Assembly: GCA_947179485.1 (NCBI GenBank)
Contig: OX359246.1
Span: 23,746,001-23,810,000 of the forward strand
DNA length: 64,000 bases
Direction: 5' to 3'
Origin: Allacma fusca
Lineage: Eukaryota; Arthropoda; Collembola; Symphypleona; Sminthuridae
Part shown: positions 5,650 through 38,265 of the stretch, piece by piece
Numbering within the stretch: position 1 is the stretch's first letter
Layout of the letters: each line of letters opens with the position of its first letter
Made by a program: the position numbers and the translations under genes
Notes under the pieces: model-generated
Seen by the model: the letters and a program-made list of their open reading frames with translations, nothing else
What the model was told of the DNA's origin: nothing
Databases searched by the model: none

Positions 5650-7547
5650 CTATCAAGTAATCCCATCACAAAATCCACAACTCTACCACAAATTCATCCC
5701 CAAATCACTCCACAATGCTTTAAGGCTACACTTACTACAAAATACAAAACAATACACAAAATAAGCTCCATCGTATTTGTTTTTAAAATATTCCCCGAAC
5801 TTCAAAAACTCTCAACCTTCCTAACAAGCACAAAATACATCTTGCTCCTTTAAAGGTCACAAATGAAATCACACAATTTAAGTCCCACATAAAATTCACA
5901 CAAAAATATATTTACAATCAAAATTTATTATTTTTAAAATTAAATAAAATACATCTTTACAAAAATAAACTCCCCCTAATATGTAACATAAACCTTTCCC
6001 CGAAGTCACTTAAAAAACATTGACAAGTACCATAAACCCTCACAAAAAATAACATCCACAAAAACCCGTTTCTACATAAAATATTAAAGTTGAAAAACTT
6101 CTAAATACAAACTATCACTAAATTACAATCTTTTCAAAAATTATTTTTTATTTCCATTAATTTAGATTAAAAACAATGAATAAAAAACATTTTAAACTAT
6201 GGTCAGAATTTGTCCAGGAAAGAATTACAAAAAATATGGGATTTCGATTATAATTGAAATAATAAAATAATAATTGATCAATTGTAATAAATATTCTTGA
6301 GAGTAATCGTTAATAAATAACTAATCTTTTTAATTAAAACTGAAAGCGTTGAAATAAATATCTTGTTGAGTTGAAATTTGTAATGTTGTTTAGCAGAGCA
6401 AATTGTTAAAATCCCTTGAAAAATCCACGTCGTGATTGTGTGTGAGAGGTTTGAATTGGGACGTGGAGAGTTTTGTTCCGGAGTGCGGACGTCAAAGAAA
6501 CACATCAACTTTCATCTCACTCACAAGCTCCTTTGGCAGCCCTCTCCGTCTCTCGTATGTGTTTCTTGATTGACTTCCTAGTTTAATACTACCACCCCTG
6601 CACCTCCCCCATCAATTCCATCCCCCCAAATCACCCCTCCTAGATTTATCCTTCCCCTCAAAAAACACCCGACTCAAATCCAATGACCTTTCCTCCCTCA
6701 AATGCCCATTTACGAAACCCTCCTTCAAAATTCTCTACTCCTAAGGCAAACCTTTCTCCAAATTTCGAAAATCCCTGGACCCTTCAAGAATCTCAGTCCT
6801 CAGGGATTCCCACAAATGTATGAGCCATCCCATGACATTAAAAATCTCCCAAAATATAGAGTCCGAACCCCTTACAAAAATCATTTTCCTCAGGAAAGTC
6901 ACACAAATTTTTATGCTGTGTTAAGGCCATATGAAAATTTTTGATTTTGTTTCTCAAAAATGGGGGCGTATTTTGAGCTGGGACTCGGGCTGGAGGCTTG
7001 TATAATATTATCCTAGGAGTTGGATTTTTTTGAGGGCATTGACTCCCCAGGGTGGGAGATACAATGAAAAGTGTATATAAATATTATTAGCAAAATCCTG
7101 GGTTTCTGTGGACGTCGTTTGGAGCCTCGCCTATTTTCTCGCCTTTCCACATTCAAAACAAGCAGAGTTTTCGTATGGAAGACTTTTCCCTACATTTTCA
7201 GTCCTACCTACCCGCTTGGGTAGTTAATTTTTGAGGAGAATTGTTTTAGCGTATTTTTTTTCGGTTGGGATTAAATTAATTTTTGAATTTTTTGAGTAGA
7301 TTTTTATTTCTCATGAACTTTGTAATAATTCTGATGAATATCCCAATACTACGTATTGTACAGCGGGAAGGGAACATTTCTTGGCTCTGCAATGTACTTA
7401 TACTGACTCTAGGCTGGATTTTATTCTCATCTTGTCCTCTCAGATGGGATAGTCGTTTTTCTCGACTTACTCTTCTCTCATCATGCTAAATCCTTTCATA
7501 CTAAAATATATTTACACAGGGCCTTCTCTCTCACTGTCCCTCTTTCC
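5650..7547. other. AT-rich DNA without a supported gene
   Basis: C-rich and T-rich stretches (for example around 6590-6700) and short open frames without splice sites or family resemblance. I see no repeat with definable ends in this interval. Confidence 0.4.
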
Positions 7548-8896
7548 CTTTACACCAGAGATGCGCATCCACAGTTTCGTTACGTTACGTTACACTATTA
7601 TGATGGGTTTTAAAATTGTCGTTAATTATCGTTACATTACTAAATATCGTATGAAAAATTCAGCGTTACCGTTCCGTTACTACAAGACAACGGTAATACT
7701 CAAGCGTTAATTTTCGTTACCATTAAAAAATATGAAATAGCCGTTACTTTTCGTTATCGTTACTATTATTGTCCGCTCGTTATAAACTAAAATGCCAAAC
7801 AACTAGTGTTGCCAGACGTACCTGGTATGCAGAAAATGTAGCAAAAGGCAATTTACTGTTTCTGTGTAGTTCTTGATTCACCTGCAATGTGATCCGCATC
7901 CCGACCAGTGGTCGTCACTGGGACATGGGAACGGGAACGAGTACAGGAACGGGTACGGGAACAAATATTTTGTTCCCAGCCAGTTTGGACACGGGAACAG
8001 GAACACTCTCAGGTGGACCCGATCACCGGGAACAGGAGCAGGAGTGGGAACAGGAACAGATATTTTTAATTTGTTCCCGTTCCCATCGGGAACGGGTACG
8101 GTCTACGCATGAACCCGTTCCTATACCTGTTGTTCCCGGGATCGAGTGGATACTTTTACCATCTTCTAGGAACACACTCAAAAATGATCTTGGAAGACTT
8201 TGCAAATTCCATTGTAGTCTTTTTTTCTTGCAATTTCTACACACATATCCTTGCCTTAAAGATAATAATGTTAGAACTTCTGTTTCAGTACAACTGAGGT
8301 ATTTTCTAGAATAATTCTACAAATTTAATTCAATAAATATTAAAATAATTATTATTAGTTTAATCTTTTTTTGCAAGTTTTACTCTTGAAAAATTGATTG
8401 CTCGAATTAATGTTTTTTTAAAATAAGACTAACAAAGGGAAACTAATCCGTGCTGGTATATATTTTTCAGATATTGTGTGTATGCAGAAAATTATATATG
8501 GGCCAGCAATGATCTTAAATTAGTAGTCGGACTAGTTCAGCTCAAAACTAAAAATTTCAGTTCAGATTGGTTCATACAAATTTTGGTTCAGTTCAATACA
8601 CAAACCAAACTGAATGGTTCCGTTTCAGCTTAAAACTGAACTGAACTGAATCGTTTGAACTGATTGTTACACATGCACAATAAATCCTGTTTCTGTAATG
8701 ACGCACTTCTCATCTCTGACGGTTGCATTTGCCGTGCTATATAATTATACATATCTCACATACATACATATCTTATATGTATGTGTGCATATACAAGCAT
8801 ATTATATATCCCTAAAATATAAAACGCGCGTGATGGGGCGATAATTTCAAAACTTCCCTCCCTCTCCTAAACGCGCTTTATAGGGTCGCGGATACA

Positions 8897-8902
8897 AATT
8901 AC
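8897..8902. repeat. Polinton target-site duplication, left (AATTAC)
   Basis: AATTAC occurs immediately outside the left terminus and again at 23792-23797 outside the right terminus. Six bases is the duplication length known for Polinton/Maverick integration. Confidence 0.92.
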
Positions 8903-9000
8903 AGTAGTAGCAAGAATGTCGATCTATCTCATAATCAATAAAATCAAGGATATCTGAGATTTTATTGATTATGAGAAAGAATGGGGTAGAGTGAGACGCG
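8903..9000. repeat. Polinton left terminal inverted repeat
   Basis: Inverted match to 23688-23791, near-perfect for the first 75 bases and then with small gaps up to the shared AGACGCG. It carries the internal hairpin at 8927-8976. Confidence 0.9.
8927..8976. other. hairpin inside the left Polinton terminus
   Basis: A perfect 19-bp inverted repeat (arms 8927-8945 and 8958-8976) surrounds a 12-base loop, AAGGATATCTGA. The equivalent hairpin in the right terminus is longer. Such a structure could fold at a terminus during replication or mark a protein-binding site; that is inference. Confidence 0.9.
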
Positions 9001-9108
9001 AACCCCTTGCGTGCTAAAACCGGTTGAAGACAGGGGGTTCGTGTTGTTGATGAAGAGTGTGAAGGGTATTGGACGAATGGGGGAAATTGTGCTCGTATTC
9101 ATTTAGGT

Positions 9109-9864
9109 ATGGGTGCGACTCAGAGTGTTTCGGGAGCTGGGTCGGAGTGTGAAAACTTCAAGGGGTGTAAAGATTGGCCTGAGTCTGGTGGTCAAATAGA
9201 TTGGGAGAAAAATGAGGATGGAAGTTGGTTTGTGTATTGTTGTGTGGATCGAATATTTCCTTGTCATTTATGCAAGGCGCGACAGGTGGGAAAGGTTGAT
9301 GTGAAAATGTTGAGAGAGGAGTATGAGAGGCTAAAATCATTTTATGAGCCTGCGCGCTGGAAGAATATGAACGTTTCCCCTCTGGCGTTGGCTCGAGTGG
9401 GATTCTGGTATTTTGGAGAAACGGATAATGTATGTATGAATAAACGTTTTAGCTTAGATTCAATGAATTGAGTTGAAAGAATTTGAATTTCTAGGTCGGG
9501 TGTGTATTCTGTGGCGTGACTTTACGAAACTGGAAGGACGGAGACGATCCTAGAAGGGAGCATAGAAAGTACTGGAATAGATGTCCCTTTCTGTGTGGAC
9601 TCCCTGTGGAGAATATGGCTATACGCGAGGGGAAGTGAGTAGGGTGTATTTAATAAATGTTGTATGCAAAGTGGAGATGGTTTAGGGGGAGTGGGCTGGC
9701 GGGTGAATTCGTTTACTGGGATCTGCCCGTTTGTTCCAAGGCTTTCAACGGGGGAGCCTTGTCCATACAGAAAACCCGCGACAAGGCCAGATGAATCCGA
9801 ATACGAATATGTACAGTTAAGTGAACGCATGCTTTATACTGGATTCGGGTGGGGGAAGATATAA
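9109..9864 (+). CDS. BIR-domain (IAP-type) cargo protein, spliced
   Basis: Exon 1 (9109-9429) and exon 2 (9495-9634) join in frame across a 65-nt GT-AG intron and give one complete BIR zinc fold: RLKSF, then LALARVGFWYFGETDN before the junction, and CVFCG, a W.DGDDP.REH block and RCPF after it. The zinc ligands C-x2-C, H and C are all present. BIR proteins bind caspases or IAP-antagonist peptides and block apoptosis; several large DNA viruses of insects carry them. The N terminus, MGATQS, fits the N-myristoylation consensus (G2, S6). A Cys-rich segment containing CHLC precedes the BIR. A GTGAGT donor at 9635 leads to a final exon near 9670-9864; that acceptor is weak. No RING finger is seen, so ligase activity is not predicted. 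It is the first gene inside the left terminus and was probably taken from a host. Confidence 0.8.
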
Positions 9865-9869
9865 AGTTT

Positions 9870-10230
9870 GTCTTTGAACGATTTTGGAGCAAGTGATTGT
9901 GCTTTGTTTTCTATGCAAGAAATATAGCAGTGTCTAACGAGAATGTAATACGAATACAAATTTAATGGAAAAAAGTAAATTGATTTTAAAATGATGACAT
10001 GGAAAAACAAAAACCTGTCACGGGCATTGTGTAAAATAAGTATAAAATGATGAAATAAACCATGAGTATTGTGTAAAAATATTAAGCTGAATAAAGGAAT
10101 TGTAAATAAATTTCCAGTCTTGATCGGTGGCATTATGCTGAAAACAAAATCATTCATTATAAGTCAAAAGCATATGTTGAAGTCCTGCAAAAAAAACATA
10201 CATAAATTAATCATTACATGTTAATCATTT
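9870..10230. other. A/T-rich spacer between two cargo genes
   Basis: No exon recognised. It lies between the convergent 3' ends of the BIR gene (plus strand) and the seven-exon gene (minus strand), so it probably holds both 3' untranslated regions. Confidence 0.4.
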
Positions 10231-12413
10231 CTATGCCGAGTATACGGACTCGGAGGATTGAGATACTCCCGACTGAGATCTTAACTCAGAAGCCAGTGAC
10301 TTCTGAAGTTTCTTTTTCTGGCGGTTCTTGGCATTTTGACGGGAGGTTCGGCTACTACCGGAACCACTCTGTCCAACTGATTGGTCTGAGGGTGTGCAAG
10401 CTGACAAAGAAATCGACCTTTTCTTTTCCTTACGCCGAGCATTTTGCAATGCGCAGCTACTTTTGCCTGTGGATGAATCTAGTGCGCGTAGCGCTTTCTC
10501 TTTCTGTCTCCTTTTGAATTTCTTTACATATGCCTTGCTGTATTTTTGGCCAGGAGGCAAAGGTGGAACCTGTATTATTATAATGTATTTTGTTTAACAC
10601 TGTGCATCCCCTGGAAAAAGAAGCTAAAATATAAAGCAATTACCACCGAATGTTCTGAAGTGGTAGAAGACCCATTTTGGGCAGGAGACAAAGGCGAAAC
10701 CTGTATCGGTATAATGTATTTTGTTTAACACTGAGCATCCTCTGAAAACAAAGCTATATAAATTAACTATAAATTAATTACCGCAGGATGTTCTGAAGCG
10801 GAATTAGACCCATTGAATGAATACATGGGTCCTACTAAAGTATCATTATTATAATTTGCCGGCAATTGAGCATCATTCGCTGAATAATACGGGGCATCAA
10901 TTGCGGGATATGGTCCGGCTAGCTCTGGTGCTTCACCGAGTATTTGGTCAGGGTCCTATGATACAATTTGAATTTAGGAAAGAACAAATGAAGTATATGA
11001 GGTATAAAAACAAAAACAAGTGATTACTGCAGGCTCTTCTCTGGTCACATAATTCAGAGGCGGGCAAATTCTAGGAAACCCGAAATTCTGCAAGGATTGG
11101 AATTCTCCTAGTGCAGCTCGGGCATCGGCATAGGACACAATTTTATTGAGTTTTTGTCCATGCACTCGTTGAATGGATTTTCGCATTTCGGACGAGCGCC
11201 TGCACTTGCACTCGGGAATTACATCATCACAAGTAAACCATGACTATAAAACCAAATGATCATACATAAATAACAATAATGATTAAATCATAGGAAATAT
11301 AATCTTGTTAGTGACTTATAATTACCAGATCCAGATAGCTGGATGCAAAGCTCGAAGATTTGGTCAGACCCAATGTGGTTTTGCAACACACGGGTCTAGT
11401 TATCAGTATTTGTCCAACACCTTGAAAGACAATGTAGAATCGAATACGAAGCATGAACAATGCGCGAAGGGTTAATAGAAACCGTTTCGACATCATCCAT
11501 GCATCGCATTCTGTTGGATGAATTTGTTTTTCCCCAACAGTTCGAGGTGGAGGAAAGGCGCGCTCAATGTCAATCATTGCAACACGAAGTAGTTGCAGTC
11601 GTTTGACATTGACCAGGCCATATCCAAAAACAATATGAAGTTTATTGGGATGGTTGTCAGTTCCAGTGACAATAAAGTCAATTTCTGGCCACACTAATAT
11701 AATAATGATAATAAACAAATATTAGTTGGGATTAAACTTGAATATAAATTAGTGACGTATATCAAATTTCACTTACACATCTCATTGTAATGAGATGGAG
11801 AAACGTAGTCCGCTGGTAAGTGTGTCAAAACACTACGCTGATGTCCAAACGTCTTAGACATCAGGAATCTCATCCCTGATTCAATCCCACACGGATTCAG
11901 TGGATGCATGTAATCAAGTCCTGACAAATACGACAGGTCACCTGGATGCGGATATTCAACGAGAGCCGCCTCCATATCGGTGCCTGTGCAAGACGAAATA
12001 TGCACATAAAGGCGACCTAGTGTAGTGGAACTCGTAACAGCGGAAAACGAACTCGCGGATTTGAGCTCCGAAGTGCTGTACGGTCCTTCCACTAAATCAA
12101 ACAATTCAAACAATTTATATTACATATTTCGCATGGGACGTAATGATTCGTTGGATCGCAATACAAGTAATTTGTATGGAAATATAAAATTGGTACCATC
12201 ACTAACTAAATTGAGCTTATCATAGTAGACTCCTTTGAAGTCAAGAGTCTTTTCTCCATATTCTTTGAATTGGAGGGTTTTGATGAACCTAGCGAACCGG
12301 TACTTACGCAAAGATTTGATGTCAAAATTCCGATCCGTGAATTTTGTCGCATTAAACTTTTGACTTGTGTCTATCACAAGTGCGGGTACCTCACCGCCCA
12401 ACTCTCGGAACAT
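10231..12413 (-). CDS. seven-exon cargo protein, 524 residues, Rel-like features possible
   Basis: Exons (minus strand) run from the ATG at 12413: 12413-12308, 12091-11777, 11693-11326, 11243-11028, 10955-10782, 10700-10644 and 10569-10231. Each has GT donor and AG acceptor, all six junctions keep phase, and there is no internal stop, so this is very likely an intact expressed gene. An in-frame TAG at 12446-12444 sits just upstream of the chosen Met; the first exon extends to an acceptor at 12561. The middle exons contain an LRIRF.IVF segment, a RPV and a spaced TKSSSF..SYL pattern, preceded by a VFGYGLVNVKRL block. Spacing and pattern faintly resemble the end of a Rel/NF-kB DNA-binding domain, but its RFRY.CEG loop is absent. 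The C-terminal half is low-complexity (Pro/Ser/Asn) and ends in a strongly basic, bipartite-NLS-like region (KKFKRRQ, RRKEKKR, KNRQKKK). Function unknown; a nuclear or DNA-binding role is inferred. Confidence 0.6.
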
Positions 12414-12561
12414 ATCTTCTTTCAGTTCGTTGAAGGTTTTTCCCTACTGTTCGGTAGTGGGTTTTTGAACAGGAAGCAGTACATTCTCAATTTTGAATCT
12501 ACACAAAAACGCATTGACGTTCATGTCAAAGAGTTTTTCATGTTCCCAGAAGGTCCTGTAG

Positions 12562-12701
12562 CTGAAACAAAAAAATCAGAAAAATGTATTTTCATGTATT
12601 AAATAAAGTCATAAGAAATTAAGAGGAAAAGGTAACCGTATATATATGACATATATGAACGTAAAATATGTTAGTATGCTAATGAAACTTATAGTGAGAG
12701 C
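12562..12701. promoter_or_regulatory. probable divergent promoter region
   Basis: About 140 bases separate the minus-strand cargo gene from the plus-strand ATPase start. The stretch holds a TATATATGACATATATG palindrome-like core. The arrangement implies transcription in both directions, but the 3' acceptor at 12562 means an additional small first exon for the minus gene must lie here or beyond. Confidence 0.3.
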
Positions 12702-13346
12702 ATGGACAGTGTGGATTTTGCAATAGCACATCCGTCTACCTGCATTATTGCAGGCGTAACAGGAAGTGGAAAAACCCGCCTGACTTTAGATATAATACGG
12801 AATAGAAACAAAGTGTTTGATAAACCTATACAAAAGGTCCTGTACGTATATTCAGACTTTCAACCATCCTTCTACGAAATTCAGGAAACTGATCCTGACG
12901 TTACTTTTACTAAGCGGTTAGAAGACATTGAATCTGCGCCTAACCCTAGCCTAGTTGTTGTAGACGATCAGATTGATTCTTTGGGGAAAGGACAAGCTCA
13001 TGATATTATTACAAACTTTTTTACAAAACATTCGCATCACCGAGGGGTCTCTATAATAGTGATATTACAAAACCTCTATCATAAAAACCTTCGGGAGCTA
13101 TCCATTAATACGCAGTGGTTGTGTTACTTTGACTCTGCAAGGGACAGATCAATAGTATCGACAATTGCACGTCAGGTTTGTCCCGGAAACGTATCTTTCC
13201 TGGTCGACGCATACAGAAAGGCTGTCATAGGTAAAGAGTATAGCTATATTATACTGGACCTGCACCCGAAGCATAAGAAATACGTTTTCTTTGTGAGAAA
13301 TTCATTATACGCTACCCCTGATACAGAAGTATATGGTCCGAAATAA
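12702..13346 (+). CDS. Polinton FtsK/HerA-type DNA-packaging ATPase
   Basis: This 214-residue intact frame has a Walker A loop GVTGSGKT at residues 18-25 and a Walker B strand LVVVDD at 84-89, followed by a sensor-like VILQN and an arginine-containing SARDRS segment. Length and motif spacing match the A32-like packaging ATPases of Polintons, virophages and adintoviruses, which drive the genome into preformed capsids. It starts at the first ATG after the divergent spacer and is followed closely by the next plus-strand frame. No lesion is visible, which contrasts with the broken capsid gene downstream. Confidence 0.88.
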   Translation: MDSVDFAIAHPSTCIIAGVTGSGKTRLTLDIIRNRNKVFDKPIQKVLYVYSDFQPSFYEIQETDPDVTFTKRLEDIESAPNPSLVVVDDQIDSLGKGQAHDIITNFFTKHSHHRGVSIIVILQNLYHKNLRELSINTQWLCYFDSARDRSIVSTIARQVCPGNVSFLVDAYRKAVIGKEYSYIILDLHPKHKKYVFFVRNSLYATPDTEVYGPK

Positions 13347-13352
13347 TGATAA

Positions 13353-13655
13353 CTAAACTTGCGAAAAACTTTGTTCTTATATACTTTGTGCAAAGCTGAA
13401 AACAAATTATTTACAAAGTTGCTCGTTCAGGCATCGGACTGGCAACTGAGTGCTGTTACAGAATGTCTTGTGAATTTTTCTATATTCAGTAACTCAAGGC
13501 GAACGTGGGTTAGTAGTGTACTGAAGGAAATCAAATCTTCTAAATCATTAAAAACGGCGTTAACTAAAAGAAAGGCTGAAGTTAAAAAAAAATTGTGTAC
13601 TGTGGTTTCTCGAATTCTACAGGACGAATTTGCTAGTGTCATGTTGTATGAATAA
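13353..13655 (+). CDS. small Polinton-associated protein
   Basis: A frame of about 100 residues sits between the ATPase and the next gene. It contains ASDWQLSAVTECLVNFSI followed by a basic stretch (KRKAEVKKKL), a pattern like the small protein often encoded next to Polinton ATPase and capsid genes; the role of that family is not known to me. There is no ATG at the beginning of the frame: the open reading starts after a stop at 13350-13352, and the first plausible start is TTG at 13359. The start may have been lost, or a non-ATG start may be used. The stop is followed two bases later by the next ATG. Confidence 0.5.
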   Translation, partial: LNLRKTLFLYTLCKAENKLFTKLLVQASDWQLSAVTECLVNFSIFSNSRRTWVSSVLKEIKSSKSLKTALTKRKAEVKKKLCTVVSRILQDEFASVMLYE

Positions 13656-13657
13656 TC

Positions 13658-14197
13658 ATGGCGCAAATTTACAAAGTTATCGAACCTCAGCTTTACGAAA
13701 AACTAATGAGCTTATACAAAGATGATAGCAAAAAGACTACTGAGTTAAGCGATGTTTCGGTTACAGAGAATGCGCACACTGATCAGGAAACACTTAATGA
13801 ACCTGTGACAGTGCTATTGACTAATTCGAATGTCACCAAAACTCATACACAGACTGAAGACAAAACATTACCTCGAAAAAGAAAATCTCAAACCCTACAG
13901 TTATGCTGCTGCAGATTTCACAAAGGGGAGAACTATATCTTGGAACCAGAATGGAAAACGTTCGGGAATGATGTGTCCTTTGGCGAGAAGGAAAAAGGTG
14001 ATCAAATAGTTGACCCTTTGGAAATACAATTCAGCGAAAACAGACAAGATCTAAGTACTCCTGGTCCAGACATTGTTGAGAAAACTGGTCGAAAACTACG
14101 TCCGCGAAAGCAAGTTGGCAAAGGGAAAAAGAGAAATAAAAAATGGAAGCGACGAAAGTTGACGAAGAAAGATCGGAAATACAAAAGACGTACTTGA
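13658..14197 (+). CDS. unrecognised Polinton protein with basic C terminus
   Basis: The 179-residue frame begins MAQIYKVIEPQLYEKL two bases after the preceding stop. The N-terminal 25 residues are helix-like; the middle is acidic and Thr/Glu rich; residues 140-179 are very basic (RKLRPRKQVGKGKKRNKK). The tail could bind DNA, but no family can be named. Its last 55 bases overlap the integrase start in another frame, a compact arrangement typical of virus-like elements. Confidence 0.6.
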   Translation: MAQIYKVIEPQLYEKLMSLYKDDSKKTTELSDVSVTENAHTDQETLNEPVTVLLTNSNVTKTHTQTEDKTLPRKRKSQTLQLCCCRFHKGENYILEPEWKTFGNDVSFGEKEKGDQIVDPLEIQFSENRQDLSTPGPDIVEKTGRKLRPRKQVGKGKKRNKKWKRRKLTKKDRKYKRRT

Positions 14198-15057
14198 ATC
14201 AGAAATTATCTGGGTCATTCTCTGGTTTAAGTAGTTTTTTTCAAAACCGTAAAGAGTTTGCAGACAAGGATGAAGTTGCAAAAGAGCTGAGAGCTCTGGA
14301 TACATTTTCATTGCACAAGCAAGCAAGAAAAAAGTTTCCAAGACGGAAAATTATGGTTAATTTTATAAATGAAATTTTCACAGCTGACCTGAAAGATTTG
14401 GCTGGACTTTTCAAGTCAAACAGTGGCAATCACTTTGTTCTGGTTGTGGTTGACACTATCTCTAGAAAAGCGTATACACGCTTGTTGAAAAACAAGAATT
14501 CAGACACGATGATTAAAGCTTTCAAGTCCGTTTTTGCGGAGGCGGGAGTTACACCTGTGTACTTATATACAGATAGGGGAACTGAATTTATGTCAGCTGC
14601 ATTTGGAAAGTTTCTTAATGCCAGTCAAGTACAACTGTATAATATCCATTCGCCTATGAAAGCCAGTATGAGCGAAAGATTTATTAGAACACTTTTTACA
14701 AAGCTTCAACGATACATGACCATAGAGAACACGAAAAGAATTGTTGAAGTACTCCCAGACTTTACAAGAGCATATAATGCTACGAAACACAGATCTATTG
14801 GTATAGCTCCAAATGATGTGACTACTACAAATTCTTATGAGGTGTGGGAGCGCATATACAAGACGTATTTAGAAGAGACAAAAAGACCAAGAAAGCCTCC
14901 AGAGTACTCAGTAGGTGATGTGGTTCGTATTTCTCGGATAAAAATGATATTTGAAAAAGGATATAAGGAATCCTTTTCGAGAGAACTATTTAAAGTTGTT
15001 CAGGTTGTGAATACATACCCGTATACATTCCGATTAGTCGACATGAATTCCGAATAG
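14143..15057 (+). CDS. Polinton integrase (retroviral-type, DDE), C terminus cut by a stop
   Basis: The 304-residue frame has the rve core with catalytic residues D82 (TADLKDL), D144 (YTDRGTEF) and E178 (MSERFIRT), a D-D-33-E spacing. It resembles the F54H12.3-type Polinton integrases. The C-terminal segment YSVGDVVRISR...F.KGY is the usual DNA-binding-type tail. A TAG at 15055-15057 ends the frame; the same frame continues downstream for 17 codons to a TAA at 15109-15111 and includes the FYxxEL motif normally found at this position. The stop is therefore probably a recent nonsense change, or a readthrough site. The catalytic core is complete. The start ATG overlaps the previous gene by 55 bases. 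Confidence 0.9.
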   Translation: MEATKVDEERSEIQKTYLNQKLSGSFSGLSSFFQNRKEFADKDEVAKELRALDTFSLHKQARKKFPRRKIMVNFINEIFTADLKDLAGLFKSNSGNHFVLVVVDTISRKAYTRLLKNKNSDTMIKAFKSVFAEAGVTPVYLYTDRGTEFMSAAFGKFLNASQVQLYNIHSPMKASMSERFIRTLFTKLQRYMTIENTKRIVEVLPDFTRAYNATKHRSIGIAPNDVTTTNSYEVWERIYKTYLEETKRPRKPPEYSVGDVVRISRIKMIFEKGYKESFSRELFKVVQVVNTYPYTFRLVDMNSE

Positions 15058-15177
15058 TTAAATGCGAGTTTTTATGCGCCTGAGCTAAGTCTAGTTAAGA
15101 AGGCGGATTAAAGAGATTTCCATATATATTCGGCGTCATTCACAATTTGTCGTTCGAATTGACAACAGACAATTAAA

Positions 15178-16677
15178 ATGTACCCTCAAAGAAACGCGCG
15201 ATTTGTTCAGCAGGATAATGAACTGGACCACTACATTGTCCTAACAAATTCGAATGATATGTCACAGTCTTCAATTATACATCAGTTGCCCAACCCAATA
15301 CATTGTCCAAGGGGAAAATATGAAGTTGGACTTTTAAAGCTTCGATACAAACCGAGAAAAACAATGCTGGAAAGTCTACGAAGTATACCGCAAGTCGCAA
15401 CGAGCGAACCTCAGCTGCGTCTTACAAGGAAACGACGACGAGTTGTCAAACGGTCTATTCCCATTCACACGTCTGCTTTTCCGATTGGTCCGTTGTACCC
15501 CGGTTACGTACCGCCCGTGGAAACATCTTATCAATTCAAGAAGACGGATGCTAATATTAGCGAATTCATATCTCAATTTAACAAGCAATATGCAGCCCTC
15601 AAAATAAACATGGGCATCGCTTATGTTGAGGGAGCAAACAAAATGATTATCTTTATTAACCCAGAACTTGGCAAGGCGTATGATTACTTGTATCTGTCGA
15701 CTGACTTTGCAAAAGTCTTGGGCTTCACTAGAAAACTGTTCGAATCCGGATCAACAAGTGGGGACTTTATATTGGATCAAACCGAATTTGTCAAAACTCC
15801 GATAAACACAATATTCGACTTCAAATTTTTGAAGGAAACATATTTTTTAAATCGTGTTGGGGTTAAACAACAGCATAACAACCTAATTGTTTTAAAGAAA
15901 CTTAACGATAAAGATTATGTGCAATATTTTGTGAAAGGGAAATCTAAGCTCGAACAGTTCTTGGAGACGATTGTAGACTTTGTCTGGGACAGTGCCTTTC
16001 GATGTTCGATTATTGTCAAGTTAGGAGCAGATGATGATCGCAATCATATAGTTTTCCCTACAAAGATAGCAAATTGCTTAGGGTTTACCGACGACAGGTT
16101 CTACTCGGGAAGTGTTTACGTTTCTAAGGCTCCATTCGACCAAGCTATGTTTAATAAAATTGGAAAGACAGATATTCTGATATATAAAGTTCGTAGATCG
16201 GTACCAATGAACTTGTACATGAAAGATCCTGCGTCGATGGCGCTTCAAGTCGTTTTGCCGCTTTCCCTGGTCAAGTACCTTGGAATATCTCGGAATCATG
16301 TGTATAAGAGCGGTTCGAGGTATGTGGCAAAGCGCGAACTAGTTGAGGAGGAAGAGGAAGATGAATATGAAAAGGAGGAAATCCCGCCTCCTGTACCAAA
16401 GCCAGCTCCCGGTCAGGCAAATCGCCTGCTGGTTCTTTCAAATTTGATTGAGAATCAGACATATGAAGACCGTTGTATCCCTCTACTTAAGGAGCTAAAA
16501 CTAAGCCATGATTATAATTCAGAATGCGAGCACGAATTTTTCCCAGTGTCTTATTTGCCTTTGCACGGCGAGGAGCAAAATCAGATTCGTGTAGATTTTG
16601 CTGACGAATCATTGAGTCCTATTAATTTCGGAGGTACTACATTAGGAGTGACGCTTCACATTCGACCAAAAGTATGA
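15178..16677 (+). CDS. virion-type protein (minor capsid/penton candidate)
   Basis: A single intact 499-residue frame. The N-terminal region contains LPNPIHCPRGKYEVGLL, a strand pattern shared by a family of proteins found next to capsid genes in animal Polintons. Two internal segments (KVLGFTRKLF and NCLGFTDDRFY) look like an internally repeated module. Residues about 385-410 form an acidic EEEEEDEYEKEE linker followed by a proline-rich stretch, and the C terminus closes with INFGGTTLGVTLHIRPK, again family-like. The exact virion role is inferred from position between the integrase and the capsid-like gene. It overlaps the next gene by ATGA. Confidence 0.6.
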   Translation: MYPQRNARFVQQDNELDHYIVLTNSNDMSQSSIIHQLPNPIHCPRGKYEVGLLKLRYKPRKTMLESLRSIPQVATSEPQLRLTRKRRRVVKRSIPIHTSAFPIGPLYPGYVPPVETSYQFKKTDANISEFISQFNKQYAALKINMGIAYVEGANKMIIFINPELGKAYDYLYLSTDFAKVLGFTRKLFESGSTSGDFILDQTEFVKTPINTIFDFKFLKETYFLNRVGVKQQHNNLIVLKKLNDKDYVQYFVKGKSKLEQFLETIVDFVWDSAFRCSIIVKLGADDDRNHIVFPTKIANCLGFTDDRFYSGSVYVSKAPFDQAMFNKIGKTDILIYKVRRSVPMNLYMKDPASMALQVVLPLSLVKYLGISRNHVYKSGSRYVAKRELVEEEEEDEYEKEEIPPPVPKPAPGQANRLLVLSNLIENQTYEDRCIPLLKELKLSHDYNSECEHEFFPVSYLPLHGEEQNQIRVDFADESLSPINFGGTTLGVTLHIRPKV

Positions 16678-16985
16678 GACAGGTCCAGTGTGATGATAAA
16701 GCTTGTGTCCTAGAACCTGGTGGTCAGAACCAAGTTGGAGGAGCAAGTGTAAGCACTAATTTAATGGCGACTGGCGGTCTAAATCCGGAGGCGTCTTCTT
16801 ACCTCATCCCGCTAAAGAGATCAGCTGGTGTGAAGAAAAAGGAGCAAACGGGCAAAGGAAAGATGAAAAGAAGGCGTACAGTTCAAAAACCAGTTCAGTT
16901 GGGATTGGCTGGAGACGAAGAAAGTCACATACGAAAAAGAAGCGCGGACGAACTAAGAAGAAGAATATTATACGCGTGTAGTTAG
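16674..16985 (+). CDS. small basic protein next to the capsid gene
   Basis: The 103-residue frame starts at an ATG that overlaps the stop of the preceding gene (ATGA), so the two are probably cotranscribed. It has a Gly/Asn-rich N-terminal part and several basic clusters (KGKMKRRRTV, HIRKRS, LRRRIL). Position and charge recall small core or maturation proteins that accompany capsid genes in adenovirus-like systems; that is inference only, since no family motif is recognised. Confidence 0.5.
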   Translation: MRQVQCDDKACVLEPGGQNQVGGASVSTNLMATGGLNPEASSYLIPLKRSAGVKKKEQTGKGKMKRRRTVQKPVQLGLAGDEESHIRKRSADELRRRILYACS

Positions 16986-17030
16986 TAGCAGGAAGAAAAC
17001 GAAAGAACCGTCGGTGTGTAAAATAGTCCA

Positions 17031-17830
17031 ATGGATTTAAATAGCGTTTTTGAGAGGGGCTACGGTCTATGAAGGGTCTACAGAGAGCATTCGATCTAAG
17101 TTGGCCACTTTAGACCTACTGCCCACTGATATTTCTACTCAATTGAGTAGCAACTATATCCAGGCATTTCCTCTCGTCTCCATAAAAGAAGATTTCAATC
17201 CTTTGGAATTTCAAATTACTTTGGATACGTCTGGCTATCTGGATCCGCTAGACAGCTTCATATCTCTTACTTGTCGAATTGTAAATCAGGATGGTAGCCT
17301 GTGCGATCCAGCACATGACCTCGTAGCCCCGTGCAACTTAATTTTCCAAACAAAGTTTAGCAATCTAGAAATCTATCTATATGGGCAACTGATATCGGAT
17401 ACGTCTAATTTTTACCCGTGGATTCGATACATGCAACGTCTGTTGAGTGCCAGTCCTCAGGAATAGGCTGGACGACTCAAGCACGAGTTGTGGTATCCGA
17501 ATGAAACACCAGAAGTATTTTAAGAGGGCATGGCAGAAGTCATTGTAACATTTTGGACCAGTTTAACGATCACGGTTTCCAGCAATGGAAGCATTTTTCC
17601 TCCGTGACCATCGCTACCGATCGGCTTATGTCCGAAATGGACTTCTTTGGATGAGCCCATGGGTTTCACATCCCCTGCCTACTAAAATATCTTTCCAGGG
17701 AATTCAACGACCCCGATGTTGTACAAACCAAGGACTACACCATCCGATGTTGACTTTGCTCAGCAAAGTGCCGCTGGTTTTGTGAACTTCGTCCAGCAAT
17801 GTCCATGAATTACTGGCTTCGCCAGTATGA
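17031..17830 (+). pseudogene. major-capsid-like (F54H12.2-type) gene, broken
   Basis: The frame open from about 17050 to 17466 matches the N-terminal part of F54H12.2-like Polinton capsid proteins: LDLLPTD near the start, a LEFQITLDTSGYLDP strand, then APCNLIF, LYGQLISDTSNFYPW and RYMQRLL. The natural ATG is probably at 17031 in another frame, implying a frameshift near 17070. A TAG at 17464 ends the frame; capsid-like coding continues only briefly afterwards (LKHELWYPNE), followed by further stops. The family is usually about 400-450 residues, so most of the jelly-roll region is missing or unreadable. The copy cannot encode a complete capsid protein. The 3' part runs into the start of the next spliced gene. 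Confidence 0.65.
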
Positions 17831-18981
17831 GTACATGTATTGTAAGTACCTGTTTATACATTCTTGAATTAACTAAATGTATGTGTATATTTTTATCAAC
17901 CTTTTTGTGTATATTTTTATCAAGCAACTATTCTTAGATTTTATTTTTTTTGTCCTGCAGTTCCTCAAGACCAGTTTTACCCCGAACTGAATGAGCACTA
18001 TGACATTTTCCGGAGGGTCAATAGTGGTATGGTTCGAGACGGTGGGATTGTACCAGTCTTATTTGCGCCTGGTGACGCAAGGCTAGAAAGACCTTGGACT
18101 GGTACGCTATCCTAGTAATTTTCTTCCCATATATAGCTCTAACCCTTACAAACTTATTAAGCTAACCGAAACAAAATCTTTATTTTCAGATGATGTCCCT
18201 AAAACCTCGAATCAGCCAGCACCTGTCCCATGTCCATTCTTTCAGGAGCCTTGGGTCAGTGATGGGACACATCGTGGTGCCGTTGACGGAAATCTACTTC
18301 AAATTCCGTCTAGCAACGTTTGGCTGACGCCACCGGCCTCACCATCACCAACATTTCAAGATCTTATATTACCCGGAGTCAACCACATGGGACCTCCGGA
18401 AGCGATCATATTTGATAGTGATGATGAAATTGACGGACCTGTTGAAACATTTCAAGGTCGTATATCTACCGGAGTCAACAACATGGGACCTCCGGAAGCG
18501 ATCATACTTGATAGTGATGATGACTTAGACGGGCCTGATGAAACATTTCAAGATCTTATATCTACCGGAGCCAACCACACGGAACCTCCAGAAGTGATCA
18601 TTTTTGATAGTGATGACGGTGACATTGACAAGCCTGTTGAACCACCGAGGTCACCCGAGGTTATAACTCTAGACGAGGATAGTGTCCCCAGAAAATGCGA
18701 TCGAGAACCCGTCAAATGAGAACCCACCAGTTGAGAACCCCCTAGTTGAGAACCCTCCAGTTGAGACATCAACAGTGATTGACTACAACCACGGCATTGA
18801 TTCAACCAACGAGGATCTGTCACTCGAAGACGCCTTTGCGTTCCTCGAGGAATTGGATTTTGTCGAATTGGACCAGATTACCAACGTTCAAAGTGTTCTA
18901 CAAGATATCAGAAAAGAAAAGCAGGCTGATATCGAGCTCATCATCGAAAACCAGTTAAATAATTATGAAAATCTTAATTGA
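17799..18981 (+). CDS. spliced cargo protein with tandem SUMO-interaction-like motifs
   Basis: Exons are supported at 17799-17840, 17961-18107 and 18190-18719, with GT-AG introns (GTAAGT donor at 17841; CTGCAG and TTTCAG acceptors). The third exon encodes three 32-residue repeats, each with a hydrophobic core followed by acids: AIIFDSDDEID, AIILDSDDDLD, VIIFDSDDGDID, then a fourth, VITLDEDS. This hydrophobic-plus-acidic layout is that of SUMO-interacting motifs; poly-SIM proteins bind SUMO chains. After the fourth motif the frame ends, while a second frame (18682-18981) continues with VENP repeats and a helical acidic C terminus (SLEDAFAFLEELDFVELDQ). A one-base change in the CCCC run at 18686-18689 would separate the two. 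No homologue is recognised. It follows the capsid gene and is probably host-derived cargo. Confidence 0.5.
18349..18636 (+). repeat. three 96-bp coding tandem repeats
   Basis: Units at 18349-18444, 18445-18540 and 18541-18636, each beginning ACATTTCAAG. All keep frame (32 codons). Differences between copies spare the acidic-hydrophobic motif. Confidence 0.88.
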
Positions 18982-19129
18982 TTAAATTCATAATCTCAGG
19001 TTTGTATAAATTATTTTTCTAAAGTATTAAACTGAATTATGTAAGTAATATTTCTAACTTGCACTTATTATTTATCATGTGCATACACCCCTCCCATTCA
19101 GCAAAAATCCAATGTATTCGGTATATCTG

Positions 19130-19710
19130 TAGACACCTCTCCACAGTGCACAATAAATCCTACGGAGTTATACTCCACTATGTTCATTAAGTCCTCAGGA
19201 AACCCTTCCACTTTGTGCAATTAGTCTCTTCGAGTCCCACCTCATTTGAAGAGAGTCCCAAAAAGACACTTGCACGGTGCGGAATAGGTTTCTACAAAAG
19301 GCTCTCTGAACTCGGTGGAGGTTTTCTCCAAGAGATTCCTGCGCTGTGCGGAATAAGTAAAAAAGATAATTTTGTCGGAGATAAAATTTGCATCCAGTAT
19401 TCCACATATGCAAGTCTAAAGCATGAGCATTATTACATGAATCTAACTAAGACAGTAAGTTTTTGGACACCTCTCCACCGTGCACAATAAATCCTGCGGA
19501 GTTCTACTCCTCTATGTTCATTAAGTCCTCAGGAAACCCTTCCACTTTGTGCAATTAGTCTCTTCGAGTACCACTTCATTTGAAGCGAGTCCCAAACAGA
19601 CACTTGCACGGTGCGGAATAGGTTTCTACAAAAGGCTCTCTGAACTCGGTGGAGGTTTTCTCCAAGAGATTCCTGCGCTGTGCGGAATAAGTGAAAAGGA
19701 TAATTTCATT
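19130..19710. repeat. two-copy tandem repeat, about 333-bp period, with sub-repeats
   Basis: The segment from about 19130 (GACACCTCTCCAC) to 19375 recurs at 19463-19708 with about 95 percent identity. Within each copy, GTGCRSAATA-type motifs recur every 60 bases or so (TGCACAATAAATCC, TGCAATTAGTCT, TGCGGAATAGG, TGCGGAATAAG). Both strands are largely open here, but a coding role is unproven. Confidence 0.8.
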
Positions 19711-19799
19711 GGATTTAAATTTGCAACATTGATGCTACAATTCCGAGCTATGCAAGTACATTCTAGTTACAAAGAATATGCAGCTGAATACATGTAAAA

Positions 19800-20018
19800 A
19801 GAGATAGGATAGAACAAAAGGACCAACGTATATATCACTGAAACTAAATAATGAATTATTCCCTTACTTCATTTCCGGTAGGCTGTCCATGACGAATCCT
19901 TTAGATGAACTAGGAGTATTCGCTAAATAGGAACGAGTAATATACATTTACATACATTTTGCATAAATCTAAATCTAATCCGGAAAACAAAAAAAGCCCT
20001 GGGTGGAAGGTCAAAATG
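19800..20018. other. spacer in the right half of the Polinton
   Basis: No exon or repeat with definable ends. Confidence 0.35.
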
Positions 20019-20389
20019 GCAATTTAGTTAACAGCCAAGCTTCTTCCAGCATTCTATATTTGATCAAACCTTCGCCGTTTTGCTCGTAGTAGCTTCTGAC
20101 ATCCATTTGTAACAGTTCCAGTGTCTTCGACAAATGAATTTTCGCTTCGTGCAAGTATCGTATAGTAACGCTGTTGTTAGAAAAATTCTTGAACTTCATT
20201 GCATAATCGATAACTGAGAAATTCTCTAACGACAACGCAAATATAAAATACTTGCACGAGGTGCAATTCCATTTTCCGAAGACATTGGAAATGTTACTAT
20301 TGGATTTAAGAAATTCGATACGAACAAATTGATAAAGGATCGATAAAGTATGGAATGCTGGAGGTAGCTTGAGAGCTGACTAAATTGTT
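20019..20389 (-). CDS. probable 3'-terminal exon of an unknown cargo gene
   Basis: On the minus strand an AATTTAG acceptor at about 20390 opens a frame of roughly 120 residues that runs to a stop. The peptide is amphipathic and helical in pattern (SVIDYAMKFKNFSN, HEAKIHLSKTLELLQMDV, YRMLEEAWLLTKLPF) and its codon use looks coding. No family is recognised. Upstream exons are not resolved; the open frame at 20987-21307 on the same strand may belong to the same gene. Confidence 0.4.
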
Positions 20390-20986
20390 TTTTGAAAATT
20401 TCAACCCAGAGCTTTTGGTCCCATAAAATGTCAACTGTAGCACCATCAAATAGCCCGATTAACCTGCTGTTATTTTTATTATTAGTGCAAAGAACGCTTG
20501 CATGTATATATATATATATCTATACCTAAAACATATCTAATTATTATTATTTACAATTAATTCCATTCTTTTTACTAAATCATGTGGTGAAGGAACCGAT
20601 TTATTTTTGAAAATTTAAAATTCCGAATTATCATCTTTACTTAAGCTTCAAAATACATTTCTAATCTTTTGATTTCAAACTGATACAACATAGCAGTCAG
20701 CCTTTATTGTTATAAAGGGTAGGCATGCCGTGTAAAACCCGAGAACAATGTTCGGAAAATTAACTTACAGAAGCAAAGGAAAGAACTAGCTGTACCCAAA
20801 GTTTCATAAATAACCTCTGTCGGTTATGAAAAATATTTAATAACGTTGGGGAGATGTATTTGTACAAAACCAATACGTGTGACCTATACTTTATATGATT
20901 ATATACGATCATTATTTAAGGTCTCATATTTCGAACATGTGAAATTATTTCAAACTATATACGCATTATCCGTTGCTTCGTTGTCA

Positions 20987-21307
20987 TTAATGCAGTTTGG
21001 CTTCCTGACTGCTTTCTACGATCTTGACGTTCTCGTAATGATGACCGTTTGCGTGTACGAGTCGTGTTATGCTCGCAATGCTGCTATGCAGACATATATC
21101 TAATATCTGCCTGAGAAGCCCTTTTTTGTACGTTCCAATGCCAAAATGTGGACAAATTTCGAAATGCAAGGAAACAATTTCAACCCTATCAAGATTTGAT
21201 ACAGCTATAAAAATCCTGACTTTGCTCCCGTTTAGGAAAGATACCTCATGTTCTTGGTACTTTATGGAATGAGCATTCATTGTCTCATCGACTAGATACA
21301 ATATCAA
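20987..21307 (-). CDS. unknown minus-strand open frame, 106 residues
   Basis: An uninterrupted frame starting MILYLVDETMNAHS, with a conventional mix of residues (VEIVSLHFEICPHFGIG, LLRQILDICLHSS) that is unlike translated repeats. No signal peptide, membrane span or family motif is evident. It lies in the otherwise poorly open right half of the Polinton, upstream of the exon at 20019-20389 on the same strand, so the two may form one gene. Confidence 0.35.
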   Translation of the reverse strand: MILYLVDETMNAHSIKYQEHEVSFLNGSKVRIFIAVSNLDRVEIVSLHFEICPHFGIGTYKKGLLRQILDICLHSSIASITRLVHANGHHYENVKIVESSQEAKLH

Positions 21308-21309
21308 TC

Positions 21310-22600
21310 TATGCTACTAGATACAATAATTTAGTTCAACGACAATTTGATACTGGAATTTCAGGACAACAACACCCCTCCTGATTATGTCTTTGAATTA
21401 CGTAGACCCAAATATTTCTCATGAAACTGACATAAACCAGTCCTAAAACATAACTACGTTCCGTTTCCATCGAAATCCTAGTCTTAAATACTCAAATTAC
21501 GACGACTACTAATTCTAAGAGTGCTTCTAATAATAATAAATGTTTACATTAAAAATATTCACCTTTTGAATAACAAATTTTAAATAGAACAATTCCCAGA
21601 CACATTTTTATTTTCACAACAATAGCACACCATATATACATTTTATCCCTGGCTATTATAACTCCCCGTCTGGAGATCTTTGCGACAGATTCCGTCTTGC
21701 AAAATACAAAAGAACAAAATATTTTCCCCCGTAATTGTTCCGTCCCGTTCCTGTCACTAAAATCTTTGTGCGTCCCGTATCTAACTGAAGCCCAGCTACT
21801 AATATATCCCACAGTCATATTTAGAGACAGTACTGAAGCTAAATACTAAGTCTGATAACTCTTTATGGACATATATCAAGATCAGGAAACTCATTTTGAA
21901 AAATATGAAGCACGATTGCACCAGCGGGAAGAGATTTATACTTGGAATTAATTTCGCATCTTTAATTCAGGAGACTGCGATTTTTAATTGCAGAAAACCG
22001 TATTATACTCAACTGAGTTGACACAAAATTTTGTACAACTCATTAGCGTCCCGAGTAAACTTTCTGAAACGACAGATCCCATCTGTGAAAAGTTGATTAG
22101 ATCAGAAACTTCTAGCTCTCATCATTGCTTCTGAACCTCGAATTTTCTCAATATTACTCTCACGTTTTACGGATAATTTCTAGCATTTTCTACGACAAAC
22201 CAAATCCAAAACATACCTTACTATCAATCCCGTAAAAGTTTCCACCAAAATTATGAGCACGTATTTTGAAGTTTGATTAAAATAAATTAAATTCAAATTG
22301 ACCTTTTCAAAAGCAGTTCCTCCAGTCTTCATCATGATTTCAAGATTTTTGTTGAGAATTGTACATTTACAACAGGGTAGCTAACCTGCACAATTTTTGC
22401 TCCGTTTTTAAGGAATTCCAAGGAGCTAGATTTTCGCGAAACTCCAGGATTTTTTTTCTCAATCAGAACCAGATTTCACAAAGGGGATGTTCCGAAATCC
22501 GAGCTAAAAAAATCCCAGTTCCAGAAATTCATTGCATCCTCAGTCAAACATCCGTACAGTCATTTTAAAATTTCCTCCCCAACAAATGTTCATTTCACAG
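21310..22600. other. right-half Polinton DNA without a recognised gene
   Basis: AT-rich with many stops on both strands. This is the region in which a polymerase gene might have been expected; no such frame is visible. Confidence 0.4.
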
Positions 22601-23400
22601 TGGCTAGCTACTTACAAAATGTTTTGATCCGGTTTAAAAGTCCCCAAATGAATGTTATGTAAATATACCTAAGCGAAAATTTTTGTTTCCCCCGACTGTG
22701 TCTGTTGCCAGGAACGTAAGTTCAAAAATCCTGGCTAAAAAATGTTACAGCTAAACATTTTTGTTAGTCCAACATTAGCATATTTAACAATTCATAGGAG
22801 AAACCCTCAAACAATTTTAAAATCCCTGTTTATCAAAGCAAATTTCACGTCTCCATGAAATTGTCCTTGTTCTAATTTTCGCCCAGACAAATGTTTTTTT
22901 ATTCAGATTCTTCCCGTCATTACCACAAAATTAAATCTTCGAGAGCTCCGAAGAATAGTAACTTCTAACCAGTATCTCCGATAAATACGACTTGCGTGCT
23001 TACCTACAAAATTTTTGATCCTTTTTGAAAGTATCCGAAATGAATAATTCTTTTGTAAATATACTCGAACGATAATTTTTCCCCCCGTACTGTATCGGTT
23101 GTCACGAACGGAAGTTTTAAAAATCCGGGCTGAAAACAAATATATTGCAGTTGATAATTTTTGTCAGTGAAACATTCACATATTTAAAAATTCATCAATC
23201 AATTTTAAAATCCATTTTCATCAAAACAAATTTTACGTCTCCATGAAATTGTTCCCGTCCAAATTTTCTTCCGACAAAAATGTTTTTTCCTCCAACGATT
23301 CTACCAATCTTTACCACAAAATTAAATCCTCGAGACCTCGGAGGGAAACTAACTTAATAACTAGTCAATATCTCCGTCACATACAACCTAATGCTTACGT
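22600..23400. repeat. diverged tandem repeat, about 387-bp period
   Basis: Marker sequences recur about 387 bases apart: GTCTCCATGAAATTGT at 22850 and 23236; ACCACAAAATTAAATC at 22921 and 23308; TTACNNACAAAAT near 22610 and 23000. The copies are diverged (roughly 75-85 percent). A further degenerate copy may precede them. The array lies just inside the right terminus. Confidence 0.7.
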
Positions 23401-23687
23401 AATATAAAATTAAAAGTTAACATTACCTTAAATTCCCACTAAGTCACTGCGTTCCAATGAAACTTCAATCAGTATCATCCCTCCAAGAAAAAGGATCCCT
23501 TGAAATTTCCCTCACAAAAGGAAAAGCTAAGTGTACCCTCCTACACGCAACAGGTGGCTTGAGCACGCACTTAAAGGGAAAGCAAAGGGATTTCCCACGC
23601 ATTATGCAACAAGTATCTCAAGCCACCGCCTACGCTCAGTCCACTTTTTTTGCCCAAAGGGTGCACTGGGACCCTTCGAACAAATGC

Positions 23688-23791
23688 CGCGTCTAACTGT
23701 GCCCCTATGCAGATCTATCTCATAATCAATAAAATCTCAGATATCCTTGATTTTATTGATTATGAGATAGATAAACATTATTGCTACTACT
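23688..23791. repeat. Polinton right terminal inverted repeat
   Basis: Inverted counterpart of 8903-9000, ending TTGCTACTACT directly before AATTAC. Confidence 0.9.
23713..23772. other. hairpin inside the right Polinton terminus
   Basis: A perfect 24-bp inverted repeat (23713-23736 and 23749-23772) around loop TCAGATATCCTT, the reverse complement of the left loop. Confidence 0.9.
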
Positions 23792-24620
23792 AATTACCAT
23801 AAAGATTATGTGGCTTAACAAGTAGTAGCAAAGGCGGTGATACAGTCACGGGCTACATTTATAATACCATAAACGGTGGCTACCTGGCTACCCATTTGCT
23901 TATAGTAAAGAGAAGAGACATTTTCTTATTAGAGTATGCTTTGCAAAAACAGTAACTTAATAAATGTCTGGGACAAAGTTTTGGTTAAGTTGGCATTAAT
24001 TTTCACATAGACAACTGTATGTTGCTTTTTCGAGGGATAAGTCTAAAGAAAATATCAAGGTCGGTAAAGGTACATACAAAAGTAATTGTGTTTTAAAGAA
24101 GTTTTGTAAATTGTTGCAATTAAAAATGCTTTAATAAGGCTACTGGCTTTCGTAATACTAGAATTTGACGATGAGGGGACATTTTTAAATCTTCACGCTC
24201 TCCTAAACGCGCTTTATAGGTTTGCGAGTACAAATTGCAAATTGTATGTTTAAAAATGTTCTGTAATGTTATGTTGTATTTCAGAAGCAAATGTCATTTA
24301 AAAAATATTCTATTAGAAAAAAACTATTTCGGCAATGGAATTTTGATACTGGCAGATCAAACCACTAGACTTCGTTGGTGTTGCTATTGGGAAATGGGGG
24401 TTATCCACCACTTTCCGTCATGTGGTGGCTTGATCCGCTATCGGACATCTATTGGTTTGCGATTTCGATTACCAATTGCCTTAAAGACTAACTACCCGGC
24501 TTATTTGTAGTATGTAATATGAATGTATTTACAACTGGGGTGTATTTCTGAATCATGTGCTATTCGACTGAACCAACAAGCTATGAAGCCTTTCGAAGCC
24601 AGCAATAGCTGGCTGTGCAG
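23792..24620. other. target duplication and flank, no gene
   Basis: AATTAC (23792-23797) closes the Polinton. At 23821 the motif AGTAGTAGCAA, identical to the Polinton terminus, appears once more. At 24199-24240 a sequence starting CTCTCCTAAACGCGCTTTA copies the DNA just left of the Polinton (8865-8902) with a few changes. A 91-codon frame at 24235-24510 has no recognisable features. Confidence 0.5.
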
Positions 24621-34028: not shown

Positions 34029-34067
34029 GGAATAAATTCGTACTAATTTTCCAGGACTTGTGCAATA

Positions 34068-38129: not shown

Positions 38130-38265
38130 CCCTGTGATCTGGTCTGGTCTGTTCCAGAAGCTGGACCAATTGTGTCTGGTCTGGTCCAAGTGTTGGATCA
38201 GACCGGACCAGACCAATAACGGGCCATTATAAATTATCCGGACCAGACCATTGGCATCCGATCAT
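38130..38265. repeat. GGTCTGGTCC palindromic motif array
   Basis: Repeats of TCTGGTCTGG and the inverse GGACCAGACCA. A shorter copy lies at 51430-51530 in unit 2. It looks like the interior of an old element of the same style as the other motif-array transposons, but I cannot define ends. Confidence 0.5.

Follow-up and report, generated by a model that had tools for sequence, protein, structure and literature searches.

Among the closest described systems are the Mavericks (Polintons) of vertebrates, which measure 12,723-24,620 bp, carry terminal inverted repeats (TIRs) of 46-1,447 bp, end in (AGT)2//(ACT)2, and are flanked by 6-bp duplications, with 96% of their loci eroded (PMC8097293; this and the other articles cited were available in part, and statements on them are limited to those parts). 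Here, we describe a Polinton/Maverick-like element of 14,889 bp that occupies positions 8903-23791 of a 64,000-nucleotide stretch of contig OX359246.1 (the whole stretch is called the window below). It shares the end motif and the 6-bp duplication of the vertebrate elements, and its length and its TIRs of 78 bp lie within their ranges. The order of its core genes (integrase, a 499-amino-acid protein, a 103-amino-acid protein, and a capsid fragment) corresponds to the order int, minor capsid, PW, and major capsid protein (MCP) listed for vertebrate Mavericks, and its extra genes lie beside this core, as do the accessory regions of most of those elements (PMC8097293). It differs from them in its host, probably an arthropod, in a presumed MCP that is broken, and in that no DNA polymerase B (PolB) or protease was found; moreover, the ATPase and integrase modules, which in vertebrate Mavericks are mostly on opposite strands (Xenopus tropicalis excepted), are here on the same strand, and the extra genes contain predicted introns, whereas intact vertebrate elements showed none (PMC8097293).

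We interpret the locus as an integrated arthropod, most likely springtail, Polinton/Maverick that has since decayed and whose intron-bearing genes were captured at the DNA level, a reading to which we assign a probability of roughly 0.72. The evidence supports a Polinton whose ends are exact and which contains genes with introns; the element is an old, partly broken remnant and not a complete Polinton.

RESULTS

Ends and identity of the element

The TIRs match at 74 of 78 positions, with 4 mismatches (8903-8980 against the reverse complement of 23714-23791). The 5' tip begins AGTAGTAG and the 3' tip ends CTACTACT, yielding the Maverick end motif AGTAGT...ACTACT, and a perfect 6-bp target-site duplication, AATTAC, flanks both ends. 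A preliminary description of this DNA had proposed exact ends and a 6-bp duplication, and both are borne out, the ends falling at 8903 and 23791. The features that place the element among the Polintons/Mavericks are its TIRs with an AG-type end motif, its 6-bp duplication, and an integrase of the rve family.

Each terminal repeat also contains, about 20 bases from its tip, an inverted repeat of 23-24 nucleotides around a 12-nucleotide center that could form a hairpin. The element is inserted at the margin of a short repeat in the host DNA: its left flank, as far as the insertion point (8832-8903), is found again on its right side, at 24170-24239, with 79% identity.

Core genes and their relatives

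A compact block of unspliced frames on the plus strand extends from 12702 to approximately 17463 (Table 1). Its integrase matches the Pfam rve family above the cut-off, and residues D82, D144, and E178, which we take to be the catalytic residues, are invariant across the 13 rows of an integrase alignment (A1). In PHROGs and NCBIfam, the integrase matches transposases, and there are also weak matches to ATPases in general; the best Pfam match of the ATPase frame, Pox_A32, is under its cut-off. Neither the 499-amino-acid protein nor the capsid fragment is recognized by Pfam, PHROGs, NCBIfam, or PDB sequences; based on gene order and resemblance, we presume that the former is penton-like, that the 103-amino-acid protein takes the position of PW, and that the frame of 141 codons is the start of a capsid gene. 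Of the compact, intron-free block of ATPase, integrase, and capsid-type genes proposed in the preliminary description, the unspliced block and the integrase stand, with an ATPase match below its cut-off and a broken capsid frame.

At E values of up to 1e-3, 53 proteins match the integrase, and the best of these is a protein (P0001) of the springtail (Collembola) Allacma fusca, with 78% identity over 63% of the query. P0001 was also the only protein found with the 499-amino-acid query, which it matches in its C-terminal part (74% over 32%). It differs from the products of the element in that the two genes are joined, such that it reads as an integrase running into the end of a 499-amino-acid-type protein with the middle missing, and in the simplest reading it would represent another, internally deleted copy. 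When viral contigs were scanned with the integrase, the integrase alignment, the 499-amino-acid protein, exon 3 of the minus-strand gene described below, and the capsid fragment, no relative was confirmed, nor did the integrase alignment detect a relative among prokaryote genome contigs. Against phage records, the integrase gave one weak match, over 39% of its length, and exon 1 of the BIR gene gave none.

Extra genes with predicted introns

An intron-bearing BIR gene is the best supported of the extra genes, because two pieces of it, tested separately, join at a single position of the profile and are separated by a GT-AG intron. Queried apart against Pfam (9109-9471 for exon 1 and 9495-9635 for exon 2), the two pieces match complementary halves of the BIR profile that meet at its position 37, which puts the intron at mid-domain; this predicted intron (9430-9494) is common to every listed spliced frame of the gene. 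Exon 2 scores 37 bits against a cut-off of 22.9. Among PDB sequences, it matches NAIP (BIRC1e) with an E value of 2.3e-13 summed over repeats (7.7e-6 for the best single repeat), as well as other inhibitor of apoptosis (IAP) chains, and exon 1 matches XIAP at 0.055. The spacing C-x2-C-x16-H-x6-C, which we take to be the zinc-ligand pattern of BIR domains, can be read from the sequence. The 3' end of the gene is less certain: two spliced frames score nearly equally (477 and 471), the second of which would cut into exon 2, and in the stretch behind exon 2 (9643-9861) there is no Pfam match and no RING was found. The BIR protein that the preliminary description had reported, intron included, is in this way upheld, its splicing being predicted. 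The protein starts MGATQS (9109-9126), presumably resembling an N-myristoylation signal.

The extra gene on the minus strand is predicted to consist of seven exons, with six GT-AG introns that leave 559 codons plus a stop open across every junction when its start is placed at the first ATG behind the in-frame stop at 12446-12444. Independently, a search for spliced frames arrived at a model with six introns whose start and end coincide with these (score of 1470). The preliminary description had recognized the seven exons and had given the protein 524 residues in place of the 559 counted from this ATG. This protein matches no Pfam family at E values of up to 10, has no relative (E value of up to 1) in a set of 8000 scored candidates, and matches only chance-level chains in the PDB (best E value, 0.83); by these searches it appears to be an orphan. 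Exons 6 and 7 begin alike, and a tandem copy lies around them (10544-10676 and 10675-10814, 79% identity); it seems to have doubled an exon start together with its intron.

A third candidate gene contains 2.8 copies of a 96-bp repeat (18350-18616) encoding IIFDSDDE-like motifs, which we take to resemble the SUMO-interaction motif (SIM). Its start lies at 17827, or at 17585 when introns of 35 bases are allowed, and its last approximately 100 codons are in another frame, joined only via a predicted intron (18619-18682). To gauge how readily such structures arise by chance, we scored GT-AG spliced frames against 100 dinucleotide shuffles of each region, a permissive test. The minus-strand gene (1470, against 882 for the highest shuffle), the BIR gene (477 against 366), and the SIM-type gene (783 against 621) all exceeded every shuffle, as did the opposite strand of the region that holds the minus-strand gene (708 against 579). 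So did the minus strand of the AT-rich right third (714 against 702), though it looks non-coding, and for this reason we treat the repeat gene as a candidate only. The score was 408 for the plus strand of the AT-rich third, a value reached by 12 of 100 shuffles, and 219 for the SIM region on its minus strand, reached by 77 of 100. For the SIM-repeat gene of the preliminary description, then, the spliced frame with its 96-bp repeats is retained, with an uncertain 5' end and a C-terminal portion that hangs on one predicted intron.

Decay and missing machinery

No Pfam match to PolB or to a protease was obtained in any of the 34 open stretches of at least 90 amino acids (six frames), in a scan that covered all of these and, in total, 45 of the 106 stretches of at least 50 amino acids. 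The capsid frame is broken after 141 codons by stops at 17464-17466 and 17521-17523, after which the frame is lost. The integrase frame also ends early, about 18 codons short of its relatives. In alignment A1, 5 of the 12 relatives are still integrase where the window's frame has ended, and all 5 continue with a conserved tail, which the codons past the window's stop still resemble; 6 of the 12 end before the window's integrase does, and in P0001 the 499-amino-acid-type protein takes over.

In-frame stops in the coding parts number at least four: the capsid frame has two, another ends the integrase, and one (12446-12444) lies in open frame upstream of the minus-strand gene. We simulated neutral decay of the open pieces (5,891 nucleotides, 1000 runs, substitutions without insertions or deletions). 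At 0.026 substitutions per site, half the divergence of the terminal repeats, the mean was 5.8 stops, and 2 of 1000 runs were stop-free; at 0.01, the mean was 2.3, with 96 of 1000 stop-free; and at 0.05, it was 11.2, with none stop-free. The four or more observed stops are of the order expected from neutral decay at half the terminal-repeat divergence. This simulation is not evidence of selection, because the pieces were chosen for being open and the stops thereby omitted bring the total near the neutral expectation. We read PolB and the protease as lost in a decayed copy, for which "remnant" is the appropriate term. With neither of the two found and the presumed capsid gene interrupted, the copy in its present state is unable to replicate or to build particles unaided.

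Features within and around the element

The features of the element are collected in Table 1. To its right, the window contains duplicated blocks (32001-39753 and 42497-52059, 79-95% identity, among the 25 longest other matches listed). An open reading frame in one of them (44160-44534) has a weak match to the chemosensory receptor family 7tm_7 (1.3e-4, below cut-off), and the blocks are probably a tandem family of receptor genes. Together with the Allacma fusca protein P0001, this match points to a host that is probably a springtail. Farther along, at 52815-54833, a 672-amino-acid open reading frame weakly matches Transposase_21 (tnp2; 1.8e-4, below cut-off).

Table 1. Coordinates in the window of the features assigned to the element
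Feature	Positions	Strand	Basis or remark
Target-site duplication, left copy (AATTAC)	8897..8902		Identical to 23792-23797
Left TIR, begins AGTAGTAG	8903..8980	+	74/78 match to right repeat; internal 23-nt inverted repeat
BIR gene, exon 1 (107 codons)	9109..9429	+	Pfam BIR profile 1-37 of 70, E 0.017, below cut-off alone
BIR gene, exon 2 (second domain half)	9495..9634	+	Pfam BIR profile 37-69 of 70, E 4.8e-9
BIR gene, possible last-exon stretch	9643..9864	+	Either exon 9686-9794 or an exon spanning 9643-9864; end uncertain
Predicted seven-exon gene, 559 aa	10231..12413	-	Exons 12413-12203, 12091-11777, 11693-11326, 11243-11028, 10955-10782, 10700-10644, 10569-10231
Packaging-type P-loop ATPase, 214 aa, GSGKT	12702..13346	+	Pox_A32 0.0023, Adeno_IVa2 0.037, both below cut-off
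Basic protein, 179 aa	13658..14197	+	Overlaps integrase start; no meaningful Pfam match
rve integrase, 304 aa	14143..15057	+	Pfam rve 3.3e-9; D82, D144, E178 kept; stops ~18 codons before relatives' end
Presumed penton-like (minor capsid) protein, 499 aa	15178..16677	+	Position: after integrase, one gene from capsid frame
Basic protein, 103 aa, in position of PW	16674..16985	+	Position compared with vertebrate Mavericks (PMC8097293)
Presumed MCP, N-terminal fragment	17041..17463	+	141 open codons; gene order and resemblance
Candidate spliced gene with 96-bp repeat, IIFDSDDE-type motif	17585..18981	+	Start 17585 or 17827; last junction 18619-18682 uncertain
AT-rich right third, no recognized genes	19001..23713		Tandem copies 19132-19392/19466-19725 and 22609-23006/23001-23401; inverted repeat 20094-20312
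Right TIR, ends ACTACT	23714..23791	-	Inverted-repeat comparison
Target-site duplication, right copy (AATTAC)	23792..23797		Identical to left copy

DISCUSSION

Origin and possible role of the extra genes

The ends and the duplication are observed, and the element would have entered this site through insertion by its integrase. If its active relatives behaved like others of their family, they would have been replicated by a protein-primed PolB, packaged with the help of the ATPase, and inserted by the integrase, while their accessory regions may have taken up genes at the DNA level; uptake as DNA is suggested by the predicted introns that the extra genes kept. In an active element, an IAP-type BIR protein might bind caspases or IAP antagonists and so delay the death of the infected cell, with the six-intron gene carried beside it as a second captured gene. 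Insect baculoviruses carry IAP-type genes, and BIR proteins such as survivin have roles besides blocking apoptosis.

A working host-manipulation module acting on apoptosis, SUMO, and possibly immune transcription, as the preliminary description envisaged, does not follow from these genes. Only the BIR gene among them has a recognizable host-interaction domain, and the copy is decayed; the part in immune transcription finds nothing to attach to in the 559-amino-acid protein, with neither a Pfam nor a protein match at the thresholds given above nor a PDB match above chance; and the part concerning SUMO derives from a short motif.

Alternative explanations

Several points weigh against the interpretation as a decayed Polinton with captured genes. 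PolB, the family-defining gene, was not found in our scans; the ATPase profile match is under its cut-off, and this gene is on the same strand as the integrase, unlike in most vertebrate Mavericks; and the 499-amino-acid protein and the capsid fragment are placed by position and resemblance, with no library match. The introns of the extra genes are predicted from sequence, and we infer that these genes were captured by the element and did not insert into it afterwards. P0001, in turn, is a predicted protein, and its fusion could possibly be a gene-model artifact. The lack of PolB, together with core proteins that, except for the integrase, have weak or no library matches, might even suggest that the locus is no Polinton and that unrelated inverted repeats surround a chance set of virus-like genes, but the coincidence of 78-bp inverted repeats, an exact end motif, and a 6-bp duplication with an rve integrase makes this extremely improbable.

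The question of whether the extra genes are cargo is a closer one. A Polinton that was already dead could have received host or other mobile sequences, which would have taken the place of PolB on its left side and, on its right side, that of the protease and the end of the capsid gene. The spliced genes do occupy the places of accessory or missing genes, PolB and protease being the ones not found; the break in the capsid frame lies a short way ahead of the SIM gene; the right third contains tandem copies and an inverted repeat; and intact Mavericks of vertebrates showed no introns (PMC8097293). Yet no pair of inverted repeats of at least 18 nucleotides brackets a spliced gene alone (searched over 7000-26000; shorter ends were not searched), intact vertebrate Mavericks do have accessory regions beside their core (PMC8097293), and the capture of cargo by Mavericks is already known (PMC10680173), such that we regard later entry as unlikely, if worth keeping in view. 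Somewhat less credible still is that the element had already moved without PolB and capsid as a non-autonomous Polinton, borrowing these functions from a full element and carrying the spliced genes as passengers. Its clean ends and duplication despite the missing genes would fit, as would the suggestion from P0001 that deletion derivatives of this element's family exist, but loss after insertion accounts for the same facts, and the in-frame stops (at least 4, against a mean of 5.8 in 5,891 nucleotides) are of the order expected under neutral decay. One could go further and imagine a trans-mobilized springtail Polinton that gave up its polymerase and capsid in exchange for host-derived genes with introns, including those for an anti-apoptotic BIR protein and for a protein lacking known relatives, and that disperses host-manipulation genes by riding along with full Polintons, a scenario that we consider quite doubtful. 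We retain the reading of a Polinton that captured intron-bearing genes as DNA, inserted, and then decayed.

Should the same cargo recur in other copies, the implication would be that Polintons of arthropods take up genes as DNA together with their introns and that they carry genes of IAP type, a point relevant to the way in which virus-like transposons obtain host genes and pass them on; as a single decayed copy, the element is a lead. It would also add a probable springtail to the hosts in which such an element has been described to its exact ends.

Comparison with other known systems

Literature searches pairing Polinton with BIR domain, adintovirus with inhibitor of apoptosis, or springtail with Polinton returned no such report, subscription journals lying mostly outside the search. 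In the parts available of PMC8905726, Polinton and inhibitor of apoptosis stand in unrelated places; those of PMC8363768, on Drosophila adintoviruses, contain no mention of apoptosis or IAP; and those of PMC11071308 mention neither of these nor cargo.

Beyond the vertebrate Mavericks, the adintoviruses resemble the element in being animal associated and in combining an rve integrase with capsid-type genes, and anti-apoptotic homologs are mentioned for those associated with mammals (PMC11071296). They are defined, however, by a PolB with an OTU-like domain, a hexon recognizable by BLASTp, and an integrase chromodomain (PMC11071296). Here, a PolB with such an N-terminal domain was not found in the 34 open stretches of at least 90 amino acids, and the C-terminal region of the integrase has no match to PF00385 at E values of up to 1, though the early end of the frame may hide a chromodomain. 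The nematode Mavericks that carry wosp and krma (Widen, via PMC10680173) likewise have host-type genes as cargo; the cargo genes are others, and those elements are described with a DNA polymerase and a putative fusogen (PMC10680173). A BIR domain within a mobile element also occurs in Burro, the giant Gypsy-like elements of planarians, which are long terminal repeat retrotransposons with unrelated machinery and with their domains in one polyprotein (PMC6431247), and the NS3 protein of bidnaviruses has been proposed as an apoptosis inhibitor of a different kind (PMC4061559). Host-type cargo in Polintons is as such already known, and what distinguishes the present element from these systems is the presence of introns in its cargo together with an orphan gene.

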